This document shows, one piece after another, positions 25,410-42,511 of a stretch of 50,389 bases of DNA. The stretch is from a virus. The DNA is taken from positions 1 to 50,389 of IMG/VR virus record IMGVR_UViG_3300023099_000003; one strand, 5' to 3'. The notes under the pieces were generated by a model. It did not search any database and was not told where the DNA came from. It saw only the letters and a program-made list of their open reading frames with translations. The position numbers and the translations under genes are program-made. The stretch's first letter is position 1, and each line of letters opens with the position of its first letter.

Positions 25410-25460
25410 TGAAAATGGGGGTCTGGGTAACTGGACCCCCACATTTTGAAAGAGCCGGAC

Positions 25461-25907
25461 ATGGTTGCTGTAGCTGGTCGCAATCGGGTAAACCGCCCGT
25501 TCTTCTTTTCAGACGTAGATGGTGAGCGCGTTGAGTTTCCTTCTTTCGGGACGGGGCAGGGTGACCTTGTAGGCAATGACCTGCGCATGTTCCGCATGTA
25601 TGTTTCTGCCAAGCAGATCGACACTGCCACACCAGAAGCGCCCAACGCCTTTGTGGCAGGCAACTGGTCTGTGGCCGCCACTGAAACAGGCATCACAGTC
25701 ACCATCACCGCACTGCCGGACGATAACGGCATTGACATGACCGGAATTGCCATTCGGGTTGATGGCGAGGATGTGACGATTGTTGATCCTGAAACCGGGG
25801 CCTATCCGATTGAACTGGATGCTGGCGAATACACTATTGACATTGCGGCAATCTCTGCCGCTGGCCAGTCGGCATGGTCTGATGAAAAGGCGGTGGAGGT
25901 AGAATGA
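25461..25907 (+). CDS. Structural protein with Ig/FN3-like C-terminus, 148 aa
   Basis: ATG 25461 is chosen over an ATG five codons upstream because a weak AGAG lies at good distance. N-terminal 60 residues: mixed (R-N-R-V-N-R-P-F-F-F). Residues about 75-148 have alternating strands and end in W-S-D-E-K-A-V-E-V, the last-strand pattern of fibronectin-III or Ig-like virion domains that decorate heads. Position behind the capsid gene suggests a head or neck ornament, but the call is tentative. Confidence 0.7.
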   Translation: MVAVAGRNRVNRPFFFSDVDGERVEFPSFGTGQGDLVGNDLRMFRMYVSAKQIDTATPEAPNAFVAGNWSVAATETGITVTITALPDDNGIDMTGIAIRVDGEDVTIVDPETGAYPIELDAGEYTIDIAAISAAGQSAWSDEKAVEVE

Positions 25908-26038: not shown

Positions 26039-26283
26039 TGCCAAATGAGCCGCTCGGCATCACGTTTATTGTCCCTGACGGCCAGGAGGCAACAGGGGTT
26101 TACGAGGCAGATGGCGGGGCCGAAGTGTTCGAGACTGACAGCCCTTATCTGTTGAGCGACGGCGTGACATTGCAGCCACCCTTGCCTGTCAAGGTTGTGA
26201 CCGGCCCGACTTTCACAGATAGCATGGGCAATGCGCAGACGGCCTTGGCCGTATCAGGCCTACCCGAAGATGAGGTCGAATAA
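26038..26283 (+). CDS. Hypothetical head-region protein, 81 aa
   Basis: Overlaps both neighbours by one base, so it is tightly coupled. Pro/Thr/Val-rich and beta-stranded, with acidic ends; no recognised domain. Location between capsid and adaptor genes suggests a small structural or assembly role. Confidence 0.65.
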   Translation: MPNEPLGITFIVPDGQEATGVYEADGGAEVFETDSPYLLSDGVTLQPPLPVKVVTGPTFTDSMGNAQTALAVSGLPEDEVE

Positions 26284-26777
26284 TGGCAGGCTATGGCACT
26301 GATCAGGGTTTTACCGACTGGCTTGCGGCTAATGGCCTTAGCCTGCCCGTTGGTGCGCCTGCGGTTGCCATCCTGCGCGAAGTGGGTAGCAACTATGTGG
26401 ATGGAGCCTATGAGCCTGGACTAAGCTGCAGCAAGCGCACGGGCGGCTTTGCGCAGGATCGGGCTTGGCCGCGTGTTGGCCATACAGTGCAATGCGAGGT
26501 GGTGCCTTCCAGCTTGATCCCGCAGGCATGGATACTGGCGTCCTATCGGGCCGCATATCTGCAGGCTGTTTCCGGTTGGGCGCAGGGTGGCACAGATCCG
26601 ACGCGCGTCACCAAGCGGGAAAAGGTCGATGTGCTTGAGGTTGAGTATTTCGCATCAGGTGACGGGGCTGCTGCTGGCAATGCCGCTGCTGGCTTCCCCG
26701 TCGATCCCCTGATTGATGGATGGGTTTCTATCTGGCTTTGCTCGAAGGCGCGGTCGATTGGGTTCTTGGTGGTTTGA
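26283..26777 (+). CDS. Head-tail adaptor, DnaT-like fold (gp6-type), 164 aa
   Basis: Follows the pattern of phage proteins often mislabelled DnaT-like ssDNA-binding: N-Y-V-D-G..., a W-P-R-V-G-H motif near residue 60, then I-P-Q-A-W-I-L-A-S-Y-R-A-A-Y-L-Q-A (80-95), and a K-V-D-V-L-E-V-E-Y segment. These are head-completion (gp6/gp15-like) adaptors that sit under the portal. The position, after the capsid and before stopper and tail genes, fits. It is the last gene before a strong terminator. Confidence 0.75.
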   Translation: MAGYGTDQGFTDWLAANGLSLPVGAPAVAILREVGSNYVDGAYEPGLSCSKRTGGFAQDRAWPRVGHTVQCEVVPSSLIPQAWILASYRAAYLQAVSGWAQGGTDPTRVTKREKVDVLEVEYFASGDGAAAGNAAAGFPVDPLIDGWVSIWLCSKARSIGFLVV

Positions 26778-26792
26778 TATCGTCACGGGAAA

Positions 26793-26818
26793 GGGCTGGC
26801 TTAGGCCGGCCCTTTTTT
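26793..26818 (+). terminator. Strong intrinsic terminator after the head genes
   Basis: GGGCTGGC, TTAG loop, GCCGGCCC (26793-26812; one G-U pair), followed by six T (26813-26818). It would stop late transcription in the middle of the morphogenesis region, so downstream tail genes need a new promoter or antitermination. Confidence 0.85.
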
Positions 26819-26969
26819 ATGTGTGGCAGTGAATGCCCATGCCGAACCCTTGAACAAACCCTTCGGCAAAATCCTTGTTGGGGAATACGCCGTAATCGCA
26901 TGTCTCGCCGTCAGGCCATGTTACGATAACCCAGAAAACCCCATCGCGCTTCTTGATCTCAAAGCCCAT
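26817..26969 (-). CDS. Small hypothetical protein, 50 aa
   Basis: Three ATG codons in a row (26975, 26972, 26969) behind AAGGAG; the third has the best spacing (7 nt). The product is beta-rich and aromatic (G-V-F-W-V-I-V-T-W-P-D-G-E-T), ending C-H-T. Last gene of the leftward cassette; its stop runs into the T-tract of the opposing terminator. Confidence 0.65.
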   Translation of the reverse strand: MGFEIKKRDGVFWVIVTWPDGETCDYGVFPNKDFAEGFVQGFGMGIHCHT

Positions 26970-26984
26970 CATCATTCTCCTTGA

Positions 26985-27146
26985 TTAAGCCGTGAATCGC
27001 TTCCAACGGCCATTGATGCGCTTCTCAATCTGCACCGGTCCGTCACGCGAATAGACCAAGGCGTAATGCCTGATCTCACTCAGAGACGTTGGCCCATCTG
27101 TCCAAGCAACAGGAATGCCTCCCTGTAAAAGGCGGTAGCGCTCCAT
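26985..27146 (-). CDS. Hypothetical basic protein, 53 aa
   Basis: ATG 27146 makes a TGATG overlap with the upstream stop; the longer reading frame upstream re-reads the previous gene. Arg/Tyr-rich with predicted strands (Y-A-L-V-Y-S-R-D-G-P-V-Q-I). Function unknown. Confidence 0.65.
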   Translation of the reverse strand: MERYRLLQGGIPVAWTDGPTSLSEIRHYALVYSRDGPVQIEKRINGRWKRFTA

Positions 27147-27385
27147 CACCCTTCCTCCAATGCCTTGTCGATCATGGCCTGAAACGTGCCCTTGGACCAC
27201 GGCCAGTCACCGCCCGCAGAACCAGCCTCAATCATCCCCTCACTCGGCTCCCTGATCGCCAGAAGTACGGCGCGGACTGCGTTCATGTAGTCCTCTTTCC
27301 ATTCGATTTCGCCGCCAAGGCTTTCATCAAAGTCCCCGCCTAAGGCTTTGGCCAAGTCCCTCGCAGCACGTTCTAGCGGTGTCAT
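27146..27385 (-). CDS. Hypothetical protein, 79 aa, paralogue of 27762-28025
   Basis: Start ATG 27385 overlaps the previous stop as ATGA. Shares with the 27762-28025 product the opening M-T-P-x-E-x-A-A-R, a central V-R-x-V-L-x-A-x-R, M-I/L-x-A-G, and W-x-A-M-I-D. Such short helical proteins recur in phages of alphaproteobacteria without known role. Part of the reversed accessory cassette. Confidence 0.75.
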   Translation of the reverse strand: MTPLERAARDLAKALGGDFDESLGGEIEWKEDYMNAVRAVLLAIREPSEGMIEAGSAGGDWPWSKGTFQAMIDKALEEG

Positions 27386-27765
27386 TGGCCACGCTCCCGT
27401 TCGGCCATCATAGCGTCTGCTATGTCGTAGGCCTCGGATGCCACGCAAACGCTGTCGAGAGGGCCGCCCCATTTCGGGCGCGGTATCCAGGTCAAAGCTG
27501 CCATGGCAAATTCATCGCGCAGGGTTTTGGGTTGTTCTGTGGGGGCGGCGCGATTGCGGACTTCCACTTTACCCCCCGGATAGCGAGTGCCATCAAACCG
27601 AAAACAGTCTGTGTTGATAGCGTCCTCCTCTTCCCCTTCCTCGACGGTCCAGTAATCGCCATCATCATCCGGGTTAGTGCAGTCGCCATAATCTAGGCCA
27701 TGCTTGGCCAACACCACAGGCGTCCCATCCATAAACTCGATTGGCTTGGTCCAATCAATAGTCAT
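27382..27765 (-). CDS. Hypothetical protein, 127 aa
   Basis: Coupled by ATGA overlaps. It begins I-D-W-T-K-P-I-E-F-M-D-G-T-P-V, a beta-hairpin opening seen in many short phage proteins of unknown function. It then has a very acidic stretch (E-E-G-E-E-E-D) and an aromatic W-T-V-E region, and ends in a charged helix. Cassette gene without recognised domain. Confidence 0.7.
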   Translation of the reverse strand: MTIDWTKPIEFMDGTPVVLAKHGLDYGDCTNPDDDGDYWTVEEGEEEDAINTDCFRFDGTRYPGGKVEVRNRAAPTEQPKTLRDEFAMAALTWIPRPKWGGPLDSVCVASEAYDIADAMMAERERGQ

Positions 27766-28025
27766 TGCGTATCTCCCATCGCGGCATCAATCATGGCTTG
27801 CCAGATTTCCTCTGGCCCGCCGCTATCAAAATCAAAGCGGGCCGCTTGATCCCCAGCATCCAGCATCTTCACGCTAACAGGCCTAACCGCCTCCAGCACC
27901 AAGCGCACCCGCCCAACGTAGCGCGGCCATGTGCGGTCAACATATGCCGCCAGTTGCTCGGCGTTGCACTTGCCCGCCCAATAGTCTTGCGACAGGGCGC
28001 GGGCTGCGGATTCGATGGGGGTCAT
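27762..28025 (-). CDS. Hypothetical protein, 87 aa, paralogue of 27146-27385
   Basis: Same overall plan as the 79-aa protein two genes downstream: M-T-P-I-E-S-A-A-R start, V-R-L-V-L-E-A-V-R core, M-L-D-A-G, I-W-Q-A-M-I-D end. The two copies flank the 127-aa gene, so a tandem duplication with divergence is likely. ATGA coupled to the membrane protein gene upstream. Confidence 0.75.
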   Translation of the reverse strand: MTPIESAARALSQDYWAGKCNAEQLAAYVDRTWPRYVGRVRLVLEAVRPVSVKMLDAGDQAARFDFDSGGPEEIWQAMIDAAMGDTQ

Positions 28026-28381
28026 GCGCCGTCTCCAATACGGTTATACTGGTCGCACACAGTTAAATGCGTAGTCGTGGGAATGGTAATCTTGCCGGTA
28101 GATACGGCTCCCCTTCTGGTTTCAGTGTGCGATTCTGAACAGGCCCATTCGGCCTTTTTGAGTGTTTCCAAGTTGGGACTAGCAGCGGCATCCATAGCCA
28201 TCCAAGGCAAAAAGGCCATGAAGCACCCTAGCGGCCAGATAAGAAGAAGTAGGGCTGCCGACATTCCATATTCTCGATCATATTTTTCGAGACCGAATGA
28301 GAAATGCCAAGCGCCCCAGAGCGGCAACCCGAAACATCCAAGTGACCAAAGGCCAGCCAGCCCATATCCGAAATATTCCAT
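28022..28381 (-). CDS. Two-pass membrane protein, 119 aa
   Basis: ATG 28381 has GGAG 7 nt upstream in the shared leader. Residues 5-28 (G-L-A-G-L-W-S-L-G-C-F-G-L-P-L-W-G-A-W) and about 41-65 (A-A-L-L-L-L-I-W-P-L-G-C-F-M-A-F-L-P-W-M) are two hydrophobic helices; the rest is polar and probably cytoplasmic. As the first gene of an independently promoted cassette it may modify the host envelope or exclude other phages. No family recognised. Confidence 0.75.
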   Translation of the reverse strand: MEYFGYGLAGLWSLGCFGLPLWGAWHFSFGLEKYDREYGMSAALLLLIWPLGCFMAFLPWMAMDAAASPNLETLKKAEWACSESHTETRRGAVSTGKITIPTTTHLTVCDQYNRIGDGA

Positions 28382-28433
28382 CTCAATTCTCCATCTCTCC
28401 AGCACCAATGCACTAACCCATTAGCAACGTCAA
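28382..28433 (-). promoter_or_regulatory. Accessory-gene leader, copy B (leftward)
   Basis: Minus strand: TTGACG (28433-28428), GGGTTAGTGCAT, then GATGGAGAATTGAG and ATG 28381. Almost the same arrangement as copy A at 18.6 kb although on the opposite strand. Confidence 0.6.
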
Positions 28434-28438
28434 CCCCC

Positions 28439-28467
28439 TTTCAATATCGCCCCCAACAAGCTATGTA
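28439..28467 (+). promoter_or_regulatory. Possible rightward promoter after the cassette
   Basis: TTTCAA (28439-28444), 17-nt spacer, TATGTA (28462-28467). It is back to back with leader B and precedes AAAGGAG of the 28489 gene. It could restart late transcription after the 26.8-kb terminator. Confidence 0.4.
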
Positions 28468-28488
28468 TCCCCCAAAGGAGATGACCCT

Positions 28489-28659
28489 ATGCGTATCAAG
28501 ATCACTGCACCGATTGTCGATGGCCTCAAGGTTGGCAGCATTCTGGATGTTGGCGAGAATATCCCGCGCGATTGGGCTGGCGGGTATGTTGTGCTGGACG
28601 AACTTGACCATGACGGTGATGGCAAGAAGGGTGGCGTCCGCAAGCCCGAGAAGGATTAA
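28489..28659 (+). CDS. Small hypothetical protein, 56 aa
   Basis: Strong AAAGGAG before ATG 28489. The N-terminal half is beta-stranded (L-K-V-G-S-I-L-D-V); the tail is acidic then basic (D-H-D-G-D-G-K-K-G-G-V-R-K-P). Gene ends 3 nt before the fused tail-tube gene, which is probably coexpressed. Role unknown; may be a structural helper. Confidence 0.75.
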   Translation: MRIKITAPIVDGLKVGSILDVGENIPRDWAGGYVVLDELDHDGDGKKGGVRKPEKD

Positions 28660-28662
28660 CCC

Positions 28663-30588
28663 ATGAACCCCATCGGCGGATCAAAGCTGTATATTGGCCT
28701 GCGGGTTGCTGGGAAGTCTGAAGTCACGGAGGTGGATTTCATCGGCCAGGATTGGCTTGAGATTGGCGGGCTGGTCACGCTTGGTTCGCTGGGTGATAGT
28801 CAAGAGGTTGTGTCGCAGGCGGTCCTGTCGGGGCGTCTTGCCCAAACCAAAGGCACCGTTTCCGGGCAGGTGATGGAGAATACGTTCCTGCCTATTGCGG
28901 GTGACCCAGGCCAGCAGCGATTCTTGGCCGCCATGGAATCGTGCAGCCCTTATGCATTCAAAGTGGAGTGGAATGAGGGATGCGAAGATGACCCCATGGT
29001 GGATCTGTTCTATGGGCTGGCGATGCCAGGTTCACGCGCTGGCGGGGACGCAAATACTGCGCAGCTTCGCAGCTGGGCTATCGCGGTGGATAGTAATGTG
29101 GTGGAGGCCCCGTTCATCTGGGATTCTATGCCTTACTTGCTATTTCTCGGGGACGTTAAAGGAACAGCTCTCGACTACAGCGTTGCCGATTCCCGTTTCC
29201 AGGATGTTTTTGCCGCGACCCCGGCACTCGCGCTAGATGATCCTGTTGCCAGATGGAACGATCAAGGACCGAACGGGATGTTCGCGTTTGTAACTGTCTC
29301 GTCTGAAAGACCTCTAGTTAAGACTAATGGACTGCTTTTTAACGGAAGCAACAATAGCCTGAGTGCGTTTAAAAGAGATGCCCTGGCGGCATCTAATGCT
29401 GTGACCATGCCTGACTTATCAGACAGCGCGCCGGGGAAGGGTTTCACATGCACCGGGCTGACGCTTGACACATCGACCAACACCCTTTGGGCGGCAAATT
29501 ACGGCAGGGCAACACCCTCAGGTGGGACGTTCAGGCCAAGTATAGTAAATATCACAAAAGACGGCGCATTTATCAGTGAGGTCGATATGACCTCGACAAT
29601 TCCTAGCATGACGCAAATCCAAGGAATTGCTTACGACGCTTCAGACGACACATTCTGGCTGTGCTCTATTGTCGAGAATCTCGTCCGCCACGTTGGACGG
29701 GATGGAACAAGCATAGGCTCGTTCTCATCAACAGGACCTAGCGGGATTGCCATTGATCCGACTAATAACCAGATTATTGTCTGCGATGAACACGGGGTAT
29801 TCACAGTATACAGCAAGGCTGGCGTACTGTCGTTTACGTCACTTTCAATAAGATCATCAACTGACCAGCTGTTTTACGACAGCGTTAACGAAATTCTATA
29901 TTATACGTCAGACGTTGACCCGGACCACATAGGGGTGATCCACTACCCAACGTGGCAACCTATTATGCGTTTTGAAGTCACACCGTCTGTCGGTGCAATA
30001 GAAGGGCTTGTTCTGGACGGGTCCAAAATGTATGTCTGTAACGATGCTTATTATCATTCGGTCCAGCCTGGCTTGAATAAAATGATCACATTCGATGTTC
30101 CCGCAGTTCCGGCATTTAATGAAGATCCCAAAATTACAATGTTCGGGAGAGTGAAGCTTAATGGCACGCCATCCGCCACCCGTGCGATTGCCAGCATTGG
30201 GGGTGCGTCATCATATGCCGGGGTCGGTCTTTTCAGCATCAGCAGCTCTACTACCTCGCTGAGACTCTTTGTAAATTCCTCCAGAGGGACAGCCAAAAGA
30301 GACCAGATAGACTTTACCGGATTGCCAGATCTTACGACAATCAGGGCATTCGTCGTTGAAGTTGATTTTAACACTGAAATAGCTAGGCTTTGGATCGATG
30401 GCGTCCAGTTTGGGGGTGATCAGTCACTTGTCAATGCCTCAGGCGGAGTGGCTACTGGATGGTTTGGTGTCGCTCGGCAATACACGGGTGCATCACCCTT
30501 AGCCATAAGTGTTGAGAAAGCCGGTTTCGCAGCAACTATCTACAACCAGACGATGCGCGCTAAACTTGATGATTGGCTTTCAACCTAA
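28663..30588 (+). CDS. Second tail-tube protein fused to lectin/propeller module, 641 aa
   Basis: Residues 1-148 are a tail-tube domain related to the 35674-36393 product: shared G-S-L-G-D-x-Q-E-V-V-S-Q, M-E-N-T-F-L-P-I, P-Y-A-F-K-x-E-W, G-L-A-M-P-G and A-V-D-S-N-x-V-E. Where the other protein stops, this one continues with a new module. Residues about 185-240 (W-N-D-Q-G-P-N-G, L-L-F-N-G-S-N-N-S-L) begin a lectin/LamG-like sandwich. About 260-485 read as repeated propeller blades (G-I-A-Y-D, G-I-A-I-D-P-T-N-N-Q-I, L-F-Y-D-S). About 489-641 resume the sandwich. The added part has more AT-rich codons, suggesting acquisition. Probably a tube subunit displaying a binding domain outside the tail. 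Confidence 0.85.
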   Translation: MNPIGGSKLYIGLRVAGKSEVTEVDFIGQDWLEIGGLVTLGSLGDSQEVVSQAVLSGRLAQTKGTVSGQVMENTFLPIAGDPGQQRFLAAMESCSPYAFKVEWNEGCEDDPMVDLFYGLAMPGSRAGGDANTAQLRSWAIAVDSNVVEAPFIWDSMPYLLFLGDVKGTALDYSVADSRFQDVFAATPALALDDPVARWNDQGPNGMFAFVTVSSERPLVKTNGLLFNGSNNSLSAFKRDALAASNAVTMPDLSDSAPGKGFTCTGLTLDTSTNTLWAANYGRATPSGGTFRPSIVNITKDGAFISEVDMTSTIPSMTQIQGIAYDASDDTFWLCSIVENLVRHVGRDGTSIGSFSSTGPSGIAIDPTNNQIIVCDEHGVFTVYSKAGVLSFTSLSIRSSTDQLFYDSVNEILYYTSDVDPDHIGVIHYPTWQPIMRFEVTPSVGAIEGLVLDGSKMYVCNDAYYHSVQPGLNKMITFDVPAVPAFNEDPKITMFGRVKLNGTPSATRAIASIGGASSYAGVGLFSISSSTTSLRLFVNSSRGTAKRDQIDFTGLPDLTTIRAFVVEVDFNTEIARLWIDGVQFGGDQSLVNASGGVATGWFGVARQYTGASPLAISVEKAGFAATIYNQTMRAKLDDWLST

Positions 30589-30974
30589 TGGACATCTTCA
30601 CCCGAATGGCCGGCGTCTCCACCCGCCTGCTGCGCCCCGCTTCGGAGGGTGGCTTTGGCTCGGGCACAATATCCCTGGTGCGCCTGACCAGTGTGCCGGG
30701 TGTTGAGGTTTACGATCCACCTACCACCACGCGCGTCGTGACCCCGCTGCGAGCCAATGCGTTCGGCGTGTCGGCGCAGCTGGTGGGTGTGGAGTATAGT
30801 CCCGGCAATGCCATTGTGGCGTCTGACAAGCGTGTGATTAGCGCTCCGATTGCTGGGGGTTATGAACCGGAGGATATTATGGAGATCGATGGCAAGCCGG
30901 TTACTGTGCTGCGGGTGAAGAATATTGTGGGGGCGGGTGTTGTCTCGGCGGTGGAGTTCATCGTGCGGGGTTGA
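30588..30974 (+). CDS. Neck/head-closure (stopper)-like protein, 128 aa
   Basis: ATG 30588 overlaps the previous stop (TAATG). After a short helix (M-D-I-F-T-R-M-A-G) the protein is beta-barrel-like, with I-S-L-V-R-L-T, R-A-N-A-F-G-V-S-A-Q-L-V-G-V and D-K-R-V-I-S-A-P, the pattern of small head-closure proteins that seal the head before tail attachment. Position between adaptor and tail-completion genes fits. Family is by shape, not by a diagnostic motif. Confidence 0.65.
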   Translation: MDIFTRMAGVSTRLLRPASEGGFGSGTISLVRLTSVPGVEVYDPPTTTRVVTPLRANAFGVSAQLVGVEYSPGNAIVASDKRVISAPIAGGYEPEDIMEIDGKPVTVLRVKNIVGAGVVSAVEFIVRG

Positions 30975-35673: not shown

Positions 35674-36393
35674 ATGGCGCAGCTGTATGCCGTTGCTGGC
35701 TCAAAGTTCTATATCGGGACCAAAATGGCCCCACAGACTGCTGACGTTACTCTTGCCACCTTTACTGGCCAGACATGGACTGAAGTAAAGGGCTGGACCA
35801 GCGCCGGCTCGCTTGGCGACACACAGGAAGTTGTTTCGCAGCCGGTTATCAGCGAAAAGCGCGTTCGTCAGGCCAAGGGCACTCGCTCGGGCGGCACGAT
35901 GGAAAACACGTTCCTGCCCATTATCAATGATCCAGGCCAGATTGCGTTCAAGGCCGCTACCGAAGGCTGCAAGCCTTACGCATTCAAGATCGAATGGGGT
36001 GCAGGCTGTGCTGAAAGCGCAGTCGTAACCATGACCATCGCCACGCCGGGTGTTATCACTTGGGCTGGCGGCCACGGGCTTACTGTGGATTCTCCTGTTT
36101 CCTTTGCCACCACTGGCGCACTCCCTACCGGCATCACCGCAGGCACGACTTATTATGTTGTTGCGGCGGGTCTGACTGCTACGGACTTTTCTGTTTCCGC
36201 CACTCCGGGCGGCTCGGCCATCACCACCAGCGGCACTCAGTCGGGTGTCCACACCGCTACTGGCCTTCCTGCTGGTCAGACGGATCTGTTCATCGGCCTT
36301 GCCATGCCGGGCGCGAAGTCGGGCGGCGATGCCAACACACCTCAGCTGCGCACCTATGCCGTGGCGGTCGATAGCAATATTGTAGAGGTTTGA
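35674..36393 (+). CDS. Major tail-tube protein with inserted Ig-like domain, 239 aa
   Basis: ATG 35674 after AGGAG. Residues 1-117 and 206-239 form the tube domain, with the same signature segments as the fused protein at 28.7 kb. Between them (about 118-205) lies a Thr/Gly/Ala-rich beta domain (L-P-T-G-I-T-A-G-T-T-Y-Y-V, G-L-T-A-T-D-F-S-V-S-A-T) of the sort often found in phage fibres and tubes, which would project from the tail. The place upstream of chaperones and tape measure is that of the main tube gene. Confidence 0.88.
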   Translation: MAQLYAVAGSKFYIGTKMAPQTADVTLATFTGQTWTEVKGWTSAGSLGDTQEVVSQPVISEKRVRQAKGTRSGGTMENTFLPIINDPGQIAFKAATEGCKPYAFKIEWGAGCAESAVVTMTIATPGVITWAGGHGLTVDSPVSFATTGALPTGITAGTTYYVVAAGLTATDFSVSATPGGSAITTSGTQSGVHTATGLPAGQTDLFIGLAMPGAKSGGDANTPQLRTYAVAVDSNIVEV

Positions 36394-40300: not shown

Positions 40301-41621
40301 CAAGGCCATAGCTTTCGAAGCTGTATTCAAGGAATTGGAGGCAGCCTCCAGTCCATTCGCTGCATCCCTCAAGGAAATGCAGGCAGGCTTCACCGAGCTG
40401 ACGGCCATCTTTGTGGAGGCGAAGGCTTCGGCTGAGGAATACGCACAGCTGCAAGAATTTATCGCCCTGCGTCAAAAGCAGTTGGTCGATCAGGCCATGG
40501 CGAATTACCGCAGCACGTTCTATTCGGACGCGGAAAATACCGCCTATGCCCGCCAGACCATATCCAGCACCCTAACCCCGCTGGGCTATGGCAATATCGC
40601 CACGGTCGCGCAGTATCGCGCGCTGGTAGAGGCAACGGATGCCTTGGCAAACCCTGAACTGTTCGGGGCGCTGATGGATTTGTCTGATGAGTTCGGCACT
40701 TTGCAGCAGGCGGCTGACAACGCCAAGCAGGCATCGGAAGCGGCTGCGGCTGCGCAAGAGGCCCTGAACGCACAGCGCGGCCAGATGGAAGTGCAATTAC
40801 TGCGCCTGCAGGGCAAGGAACTGGAGGCCACGGCCAAGGCTCGCCAACAGGAACTGGCAGCAATGGACCCATCGCTGCGCGCCTTGCAGCAGCAGATCAA
40901 TCTGTGGACTGACATTGCCGCTGCGCAGGATGTTTTGCGCACATCATACGAACGCGAAAAGGGCGCGCTGGAAGAAGCCGCTGAAGCCCTGCGCGGTCTG
41001 GGCGATACCTTGCGCGACTTCCGCAAGAGCCTGGATGCGGATGAAATCGGTTCCAACCCTGCAGCCATTGCCGCACGGTTCCGTGAAGTCAGCCGCATGG
41101 CATCCATGGGCGACCAAACGGCCATGGGCAACCTGCCGCAATCGGCCCGTGACTATCTGGATTCGGTTAGGTCTAATGCCCGTAGCGAGCAGGAATATCT
41201 GCGCGCATTGGCGGAGGTTCGCCGCGCAACGGATAGCGCCATCGGGGCGGCTGACGCGGGCGTTACTGAAGCAGAGCGCCAGTTAGAGCAGTTGAAGCTG
41301 CAGGTCGGCGCGCTGATTAACATCAACGACAATGTGGTTACGGTGGCGCAGGCGATTGACCGCCTCACCGCCCTGTGGAATCCCGCCGCGCCTGGAACGC
41401 CCACGCCCGTCAATTCCGACACGCGGGACCGCCAGGATGAGCGTGATGAGCGGATGAGGGAAACATTTGACCGCTTGAGCGACTTCTTCCGCATCGGTTT
41501 GGACAGGCTTGGGGCCAAGCAGGACCAGACCAATCGCCTATGGGGCCAGATTGCTGCCGGCGTTGTGCCAATTACCGTTCGCACCGATCCGATTGAACCG
41601 CTAGAAGTGGTCACGCCATGA
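37374..41621 (+). CDS. Tape measure protein, 1415 aa
   Basis: Largest gene; sets tail length and is expelled during infection. The N-terminal 500 residues are Ala/Ser/Lys-rich helices with a hydrophobic block (about 200-260: A-L-A-P-I-L-P-I-V-L-A-I-A-A-A-V-A-A-V-A-A-A). A glycine-zipper membrane segment lies near 800-850 (G-G-A-A-G-Q-A-I-G-N-L-I-G-G-P-I-G-G). The C-terminal third is long coiled coil. No cell-wall hydrolase motif is visible. At about 0.15 nm per residue the tail would be near 200 nm. Directly follows the chaperones. Confidence 0.93.
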   Translation: MADIAALGLRVDSDGIVKGTADLDKFASSADKAGSAADRMGREAQRGASGTRDLGNAANTADSGISKLARDAAQAQAAIDRYAGSTNRATSEALASASAIDAAGSAAAASASQVTRLAEGYDILTGKVNSNFLAIGRNLQSVGAVPREFQKVSGAIKLTARDGLNFSRQFADIGVTAAMGMNPLMIAIQQGPQLFDILQERAIATGATIGAVAKAAGAQIWAALAPILPIVLAIAAAVAAVAAAFALGARNIRQANGDIISGLGLTEKQLERVKKSGVETGVTIGDTFFAFFDVVGDRLTSAFEGPLKWLADAWNWTLDTVTTVALTAIKLIAGTWTGLIQGMIASWRILPGAIGDTFMQIVNGTVAGIEFLINKAVMGINSVLDFANSIPGVDLGNLGDVSLGRFANQFEGQGKALGDAFTKGFDDGMQSASGAIDRFLSDVSNRAAQRRREAILAAAGDPGAAREKSGGKTEAEKFADLVGDVTREIALIETKTRAVGLSADAALRMENQQKLLNDAQAKGITLTDAQTRVLMGLADELTAAQIALKNAEGFKAINDGLDKQIRALSQANTNVGLYGEELYSLVALQNLMNEALDKELTLTQDQKQALADKAKEIGKIQAAGDTSKFMEDMRVQSEASMKAMAAERAEMGLSGAALAAYRFEQELLAKAERDHIILTPDMVSAIKERAKAYGEERAQIDNAAAALSALNGVMGSGSFGQILGILTSGNPVASLLGSGGIGTMIGLLTKDGQQAYTQQRKAIEAGLVSVFGEKASGLAKTLGGLIQGAATGSMAADTILGGNRGTASNIGAAIGGAAGQAIGNLIGGPIGGMIGSAILGTLGGFLGSIFGGTPKGAVTVNGNRITGTTGKGDQLKAATQAGDAIIGSLASIAKALGGTVGTVRGVTIGMRKDDYIVDPTGQGRVKGSGVMNFGKDAEAAALAATKLLIERGVIQGIRASTQNILKAGGDLETQLNKAIAFEAVFKELEAASSPFAASLKEMQAGFTELTAIFVEAKASAEEYAQLQEFIALRQKQLVDQAMANYRSTFYSDAENTAYARQTISSTLTPLGYGNIATVAQYRALVEATDALANPELFGALMDLSDEFGTLQQAADNAKQASEAAAAAQEALNAQRGQMEVQLLRLQGKELEATAKARQQELAAMDPSLRALQQQINLWTDIAAAQDVLRTSYEREKGALEEAAEALRGLGDTLRDFRKSLDADEIGSNPAAIAARFREVSRMASMGDQTAMGNLPQSARDYLDSVRSNARSEQEYLRALAEVRRATDSAIGAADAGVTEAERQLEQLKLQVGALININDNVVTVAQAIDRLTALWNPAAPGTPTPVNSDTRDRQDERDERMRETFDRLSDFFRIGLDRLGAKQDQTNRLWGQIAAGVVPITVRTDPIEPLEVVTP

Positions 41622-42511
41622 AGATGATTGAAAACATTCCGGTGACGGATGCTGTGTTTGGCAGTTCCAACGCTACTGAAAGTGCACCGGAATGGGCTGT
41701 GGGCACCTCCTACGCGCTGGATGACATTGTGCAGGTTGCAGCCGCCAAACGGCGGTATCAAAGCCTTGTCGGCTCTAACACGGGCAATGACCCCACGGTT
41801 GCGGGCAGCACATTCTGGCTGGATATTGGCCCGACCAATCCTTGGGCTATGTTTGATGAATACTCAGACACCCAGACCGTTCGCGCGGAAAACATCACTG
41901 TCGTATTAAACCCGCCATCACGGGTTTCATCCATCGCACTGTTCAATCTGGACGCGGCAACGGTCACGGTGACAATGACGGACCCTGTAGAGGGTATTGT
42001 CTACCAAGAAACGTTCACCCTTACTTCGGCTGAGAATGTGGCCGACTATTGGGATTATTTCTTTGCGCCTATCCTGCGCAAAACGGATTTGTTTGTTGAC
42101 GACCTACCGCCATATGCTGGCGCTTCGATCACTGTTTCAGTGGATCACCCAGATGCCGATGCCAAAGTTGGTAAAATGGTAATAGGCACTATGCGGGACA
42201 TGGGCGCCACCATCCTTGGGGCTGAGTTTGGTCGCATATCAGGAACACGGTTTATTGAGGATGACTTCAACAACCTTACTCCGGTTCGCCGCGCATCGCG
42301 CCGCCGCATGAGCTTGACAGTGATCGTGCCTAAAGAGGACGTGGACGAAGTTGGCCGCATTCTGGACGAACGCGACGGCATCCCGACAACCTTTGTCGGG
42401 GCTGACCAATACACCCAGACCCTGATTGATGGCATTTTCAGGGAATGGCGTGTAGTTATCGAGCAGAATGTGCAATCCATGCTGAGCATTGACATAGAGG
42501 GGCTGCGCTAA
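41618..42511 (+). CDS. Distal tail protein with carbohydrate-binding-like N-terminus, 297 aa
   Basis: ATGA overlap with the tape measure. Residues about 23-60 (W-A-V-G-T-S-Y-A-L-D-D-I-V, R-R-Y-Q-S-L, D-I-G-P-T-N-P-W) resemble a CBM5/12-like carbohydrate-binding module. A beta-sandwich (about 85-180) and a C-terminal domain (I-D-G-I-F-R-E-W-R-V-V-I-E) follow. Phages with this order use it as a tail-tip or baseplate hub. Assignment is by position and partial pattern. Confidence 0.7.
   Translation: MKMIENIPVTDAVFGSSNATESAPEWAVGTSYALDDIVQVAAAKRRYQSLVGSNTGNDPTVAGSTFWLDIGPTNPWAMFDEYSDTQTVRAENITVVLNPPSRVSSIALFNLDAATVTVTMTDPVEGIVYQETFTLTSAENVADYWDYFFAPILRKTDLFVDDLPPYAGASITVSVDHPDADAKVGKMVIGTMRDMGATILGAEFGRISGTRFIEDDFNNLTPVRRASRRRMSLTVIVPKEDVDEVGRILDERDGIPTTFVGADQYTQTLIDGIFREWRVVIEQNVQSMLSIDIEGLR

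Follow-up and report, generated by a model that had tools for sequence, protein, structure and literature searches.

A tail-tube paralogue fused to a propeller-bearing module as a possible separately encoded display subunit of a phage tail shaft

In a virus record of 50,389 bases, the whole of which constitutes the window analysed here, we uncovered an open reading frame whose product is a chimeric paralogue of the phage's own tail-tube protein: a tube domain of the lambda type is followed, in the same frame, by a module of ~490 residues built around a five-bladed β-propeller. The chimera itself is real and well supported. We lean towards the interpretation that it is a tube subunit, present at low copy, which would hold out a binding module along the tail shaft. 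A broader proposal has about an even chance of being right, namely that this is a separate, display-only tube-subunit gene, which arose when the tube gene was duplicated and the duplicate dropped its decoration insert and acquired at its end a foreign receptor-binding module of the propeller-in-sandwich kind, such that the tube would be a mosaic of two gene products and adhesion along the shaft could be gained or lost as a cassette. The constituent parts of this gene and of its counterpart are:

28663..30588, plus strand: accessory tail-tube protein gene, 641 aa (open reading frame; homology to the 35674 product)
28663..29106, plus strand: tail-tube domain, residues 1-148 (homology, PHROGs, AlphaFold; decoration insert absent)
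29107..29376, plus strand: N-terminal flank of the module, residues 149-238, a possible first half of a β-sandwich (z 8.2 match; low-confidence model)
29377..30102, plus strand: five-bladed β-propeller, residues ~239-480 (Pfam NHL, blade repeats, model, fold search)
30118..30585, plus strand: C-terminal flank, residues 486-641, a probable β-sandwich, putatively LamG-like (L100 match; low-confidence model)
35674..36393, plus strand: main tail-tube gene, 239 aa (homology)
36013..36282, plus strand: decoration domain inserted at residues ~114-203 of the main tube protein (no counterpart in the accessory one)

The tube domain is recognizable by several routes. Residues 4-148 align with the 35674 product in two blocks (53% identity over 122 residues and 74% over 35 residues; BLASTP E 6e-38), which are separated because the main protein carries an inserted domain of ~90 residues that is absent from the accessory protein; overall, the shared core is 58% identical. 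An earlier note on this DNA had claimed such a block-wise match for the first 148 residues, with the extension beginning precisely where the main protein stops, and both claims are borne out: the main protein ends in ...VDSNIVEV, and the module starts straight after ...VDSNVVE (residue 148). Independently of the match to the phage's own tube protein, PHROGs assigned residues 16-174 to the major tail protein family phrog_158 (1.9e-9). The test of the N-terminal fold, by which the same note had invited its own refutation, came out in its favor: AlphaFold (AF2), applied to residues 1-159 with 22 relatives, returned a confident tube fold (pLDDT 87.4), with the YDC107 and lambda tubes as the top PDB matches in Foldseek (E 8e-8 to 8e-7, TM 0.65) and lambda-type (gpV-type), 80alpha, SaPI1, NF5 and monocin tubes making up the leading ones. 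The structures of the tube domain and the module were predicted apart rather than as one full-length model. Further, of 30 columns with a conservation of 90% or more among 75 other tube proteins, the tube domain retains 26, the four exceptions being mild. The usual position of a tube gene is between the tail terminator and the tail chaperones. This place is occupied by 35674, and the accessory gene is a separate gene that starts 7.0 kb upstream of it; hence, we refer to its product as a paralogue of the tube protein rather than as the major tail protein.

The identification of the propeller is similarly secure. At least four blades had been claimed from the sequence; there are five, as indicated by a Pfam NHL match (5.7e-5), five blade repeats starting at residues 260, 318, 358, 398 and 444, and a model that is confident over residues ~239-480 (pLDDT mostly 74-94). 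Fold comparison with VIA-align recovered 2iwa, 3mbr and 3qqz (glutaminyl cyclases/YjiK; Z 24.1), NHL domains (Z 17-19) and the receptor-binding propellers of phages phi11 and 80alpha (Z 16.6). The phi11 propeller has the glutaminyl cyclase of Z. mobilis as its own best fold match, and the sugar site proposed for it, from modelling, is a polar cavity in the middle of the propeller (PMC4901313). Residues Q320, D401, E447, D461 and H465 are conserved across the distant relatives of the module and fall in equivalent blade positions or nearby; they may line a phi11-like central cavity. The module relatives were recovered by degenerate DNA motifs for two of the blade motifs, and related propellers were found in late-gene regions of rhizobial phages and one cyanophage. 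Peptide-pattern scans of IMG/VR for relatives of the whole protein or of the module alone returned none, nor did a propeller-pair alignment search. Stand-alone propellers (28-32% identical) are encoded on the minus strand of two other viral-labelled contigs (L099:2707-3666 and L103:5639-6547).

The flanks of the propeller are less clear-cut. The earlier note had described a lectin or LamG-like sandwich split by the propeller; the propeller part of this description stands, and the lectin part is no more than plausible, given that Pfam searches of both flanks and a Laminin_G_3 scan across the whole window were empty. A tblastn search of the joined flanks against phages likewise gave no firm LamG support, an hhalign comparison to LamG around the motif RLWIDG yielded E 0.007 with a probability of 5%, and the flank model is of low confidence (pLDDT mostly 20-60). 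Thus, a lectin or LamG identity of the flanks is hypothetical. On the other hand, the C-terminal flank (486-641) matches the same flank of the propeller protein L100 (z 18.5), and residues ~176-218 of the N-terminal flank resemble the N-terminal part of the cyanophage propeller protein P0002 (z 8.2). As both flanks match those of other propeller proteins, it is plausible, from sequence comparison, that the propeller-interrupted sandwich recurs as a unit apart from the tube domain. The L100 protein (L100:10073-11716, minus strand) displays a twin-arginine-like leader followed by the same propeller and C-terminal flank, with no tube domain.

Phylogenetic and compositional evidence bears on how the chimera was assembled. 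In a 77-row tree, the accessory tube domain is nested, at support 100, among 22 tube proteins, all of which carry the decoration insert. The simplest reading of this grouping is that a tube gene was duplicated and that one copy lost the insert and acquired the C-terminal module; hence, the accessory tube domain is most likely a diverged duplicate of a tube protein that lost the insert. By path length, the row closest to it is the phage's own tube protein; the tree does not settle the branching at that point, and the accessory branch is long (0.62 vs 0.20), which leaves horizontal arrival of the duplicate as a candidate. The decoration insert is present in some branches of the tree and absent from others, even among close relatives, and thus behaves as if it were a mobile domain; we also observed this ~90-aa domain in unrelated Microbacterium, Leptospira and Bradyrhizobium phages, where it is part of tail fibre, baseplate or minor tail proteins. 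The GC3 of the tube domain is 0.642 against 0.495 in the module (z 3.1), the latter being below that of 32 of the 33 genes of the phage that were checked. The lower G+C of the module suits a foreign origin. The drop was discarded as a precise guide to where the fusion lies, since the likelihood curve for a break stays flat over residues 150-293.

The genomic context is that of a typical siphophage, with terminase, portal, major capsid, Ad1, Hc1, MuF-type head morphogenesis and Neck1 genes, followed further on by the tail terminator, the main tube protein (35674), two tail chaperones and the tape measure. The accessory gene lies in an insertion at the head-tail junction, with the following elements:

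26283..26777, plus strand: head-tail adaptor Ad1 (phrog_477), left border of the insertion (PHROGs)
26787..26818, plus strand: hairpin of an intrinsic terminator immediately behind Ad1 (-23.8 kcal/mol, z -4.8)
26817..28408, minus strand: small-gene cassette in the structural region, e.g., 27382-27765, 27762-28025 and 28022-28408 (GC-skew reversal)
28489..28659, plus strand: 56-aa open reading frame (MRIKITAPIVDGLKVG...) directly upstream of the accessory gene
30588..30974, plus strand: head-closure gene Hc1 (phrog_161; PHROGs), whose start overlaps the accessory stop

The gap between Ad1 and Hc1 is 3,796 bases here (a 3.8-kb insertion comprising the terminator, the minus-strand cassette, the 56-aa frame and the accessory gene), whereas in each of the 20 relatives that could be compared they lie next to each other or almost so (gap -225 to +254). 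These 20 are the loci where both genes were recognized, and they include a few cases of one sequence present in two collections. The cassette consists of ~5 small genes inside the plus-strand structural operon, right after the strong terminator; one of them (27382-27765) weakly matches a transcriptional regulator family as well as phage proteins without an assigned function. With this terminator and cassette upstream, the accessory gene and the head-tail genes downstream probably have their own promoter near 28410-28488, as inferred from this layout; a consensus promoter scan found none above chance. The accessory frame itself runs for 641 codons without interruption, is preceded by a good ribosome-binding site (AGAAGGA) and ends in a stop codon that overlaps the start of Hc1 (TAATG, 30586-30590), which places the gene in the structural operon.

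Several neighboring features were seen in passing. On a related contig, a 722-aa Ala/Ser/Gly-rich repetitive open reading frame (L007:3814-5982) lies just upstream of Ad1, and hence accessory virion genes may have settled at the head-tail junction more than once. A 153-aa frame adjoining the major capsid gene (25446-25907) has a weak match to cadherin/FN3-like sandwiches and is possibly, judging from that match, a head decoration protein. The tail-tip protein encoded at 41618-42511 (phrog_6278) has relatives in Vibrio phages, phiHSIC and the Caulobacter phage DMCA, and no lambda J-like large hub protein follows it, unlike in the related contigs L006 and L007, which share the tube protein; so the tube and tip modules differ in ancestry.

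The arrangement is rare in the sequences surveyed. We collected tube-protein loci from 80 IMG/VR entries, two phage records and six genome loci, the intact proteins being 149-273 aa long and single copy within the fetched stretch. No other tube protein among ~85 relatives has a large extension, and no extended tube protein was found in ~1,180 sampled alphaproteobacterial genomes; as the tube loci include many partial ones and the genomes were sparsely sampled, "rare" is a safer word than "unique". A 683-aa open frame matching the tube profile (G854) proved to be noise, a mere open stretch preceding a tube gene of the ordinary kind. The literature covered, to which subscription papers are mostly external, yielded no separately encoded extended tube protein: a match for "two major tail proteins" concerned two neighboring copies of one protein in JBD30, and one for "two tail tube proteins" the unrelated tubular A/B proteins of a pelagiphage. 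Thus, the unusualness asserted in the earlier note can be retained for a separate gene so built (none in the ~85 tube proteins and ~1,180 genomes); an extended tube protein that displays a large carbohydrate-binding module is already known from the lactococcal 936 phages (PMC6669499).

How might such a protein act? We propose that the accessory subunit would co-assemble at low copy with the main protein in the hexameric rings around the tape measure. In lambda gpV, the external Ig domain sits at the C-terminus of its tube domain; the module of the accessory protein occupies the same site and so would project outward from the tube, arraying propeller and sandwich domains along the shaft. Their ligands would be glycans of the host surface or some other component of the envelope; each contact would be weak, but many would act together, and binding by the shaft would help the virion find and hold its host. 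This display reading is favored by the homology of the first domain to the phage's own tube protein and phrog_158 together with its gpV-type fold, by the conserved tube positions and the open frame, by the likeness of the propeller to those of the phi11 and 80alpha receptor-binding proteins, by the late-gene propellers of the rhizobial phages and the cyanophage, by the overlap with Hc1 that puts the gene in the structural operon, and by the precedents of 936 TpeX and SPP1 gp17.1*. Against it stand the placement of the gene between head-tail connector genes rather than beside the main tube gene, and the want of a second natural example that would show the arrangement to be selected; the modest identity of the tube domain to its partner (58%) and the long branch further mean that co-assembly is not assured.

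That same placement, with the overlap of the Hc1 start, could instead be taken to mean that the accessory protein makes up a single special ring with six large modules on it, either head-proximal (neck- or collar-like) or tip-proximal, in a role comparable to the neck passage structure of lactococcal phages; 936 phages do have carbohydrate-binding modules at the neck too (PMC6669499). We regard this as unlikely though deserving of attention: gene position is weak evidence of virion position, the tube domain shows no obvious additional interface, and by sequence it belongs with tube proteins and not with terminator or distal-tail proteins. Improbable, too, is the idea that the protein stays outside the virion, with the insertion being a passenger (moron) cassette and the fusion recent and non-functional, or else soluble as a decoy adhesin or a competitor of tube assembly. 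The absence of the whole 3.8-kb stretch from the 20 relatives, its inclusion of small minus-strand genes and a strong terminator, the lower GC3 of the C-terminal part and the failure to find a second example would all accord with such a passenger, whereas the 641 open codons, the ribosome-binding site, the Hc1 overlap and the conserved tube positions speak against it. An assembly artefact joining two unrelated sequences might be suspected, the window being a database viral contig of which no second copy was found; it is very improbable, as the reading frame passes straight from the last residue of the tube domain into the module, whose stop in turn overlaps the start of the native Hc1 gene, and a random misjoin would need two such clean in-frame junctions. 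Finally, that the accessory protein replaces the main one in some virions or conditions to give two tail types is scarcely credible, even though the tube domain is complete and the gene, lying beyond the terminator, is probably transcribed separately, for we estimate that six ~55-kDa modules per ring at a ~4-nm rise would crowd, and no invertible repeat or recombinase was noticed, short of a systematic search, beside either gene.

Tail-tube decorations are widespread and their role is debated. If the display-subunit interpretation is correct, the amount of shaft decoration would be set by expression rather than by frameshifting and would be transferable as a cassette; the accessory gene, being presumably non-essential, would offer a clean test case for whether adhesion by the shaft matters, and its product might provide a natural scaffold by which phage tails could be made to carry large domains.

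A close parallel is the TpeX protein of the lactococcal 936 phages, a tube protein of ~470-530 aa that likewise has a tube domain followed by a large module, in that case a carbohydrate-binding extension displayed on the tail, and a GFP-TpeX fusion binds host cells specifically (PMC6669499). Unlike the accessory protein, TpeX is produced from the main tube gene by a programmed frameshift, so that its tube part is identical to the main protein, and its module is BppA-like rather than a propeller. Similarly, gp17.1* of SPP1 combines a tube domain with an extra C-terminal domain and is a minor subunit mixed into the tube (gp17.1 to gp17.1* being 3:1; PMC8718954); it too is a frameshift product, and its extension is a single FN3 domain that is dispensable in the laboratory. 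Lambda gpV, T5 pb6 and JBD30 gp44 share the lambda-type tube fold and bear external decoration domains, the inserted one of JBD30 being placed as in the main tube protein of this phage (PMC11445458); these decorations are small (Ig-like or decoration domains) and are carried on the sole tube protein. The siphophage-tail receptor-binding protein of phi11 and 80alpha offers the same five-bladed, glutaminyl-cyclase-type propeller (PMC4901313), there as a trimer at the baseplate without a tube domain. YjiK, the plant-type glutaminyl cyclases and the NHL proteins resemble the propeller in fold (Z 17-24), but they are cellular proteins with sequence identity of just 9-14%, and this likeness is silent on enzyme activity. 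Thus, tube-borne adhesins are already known, and what is new, as far as we found, is a separate gene of this size and make-up.
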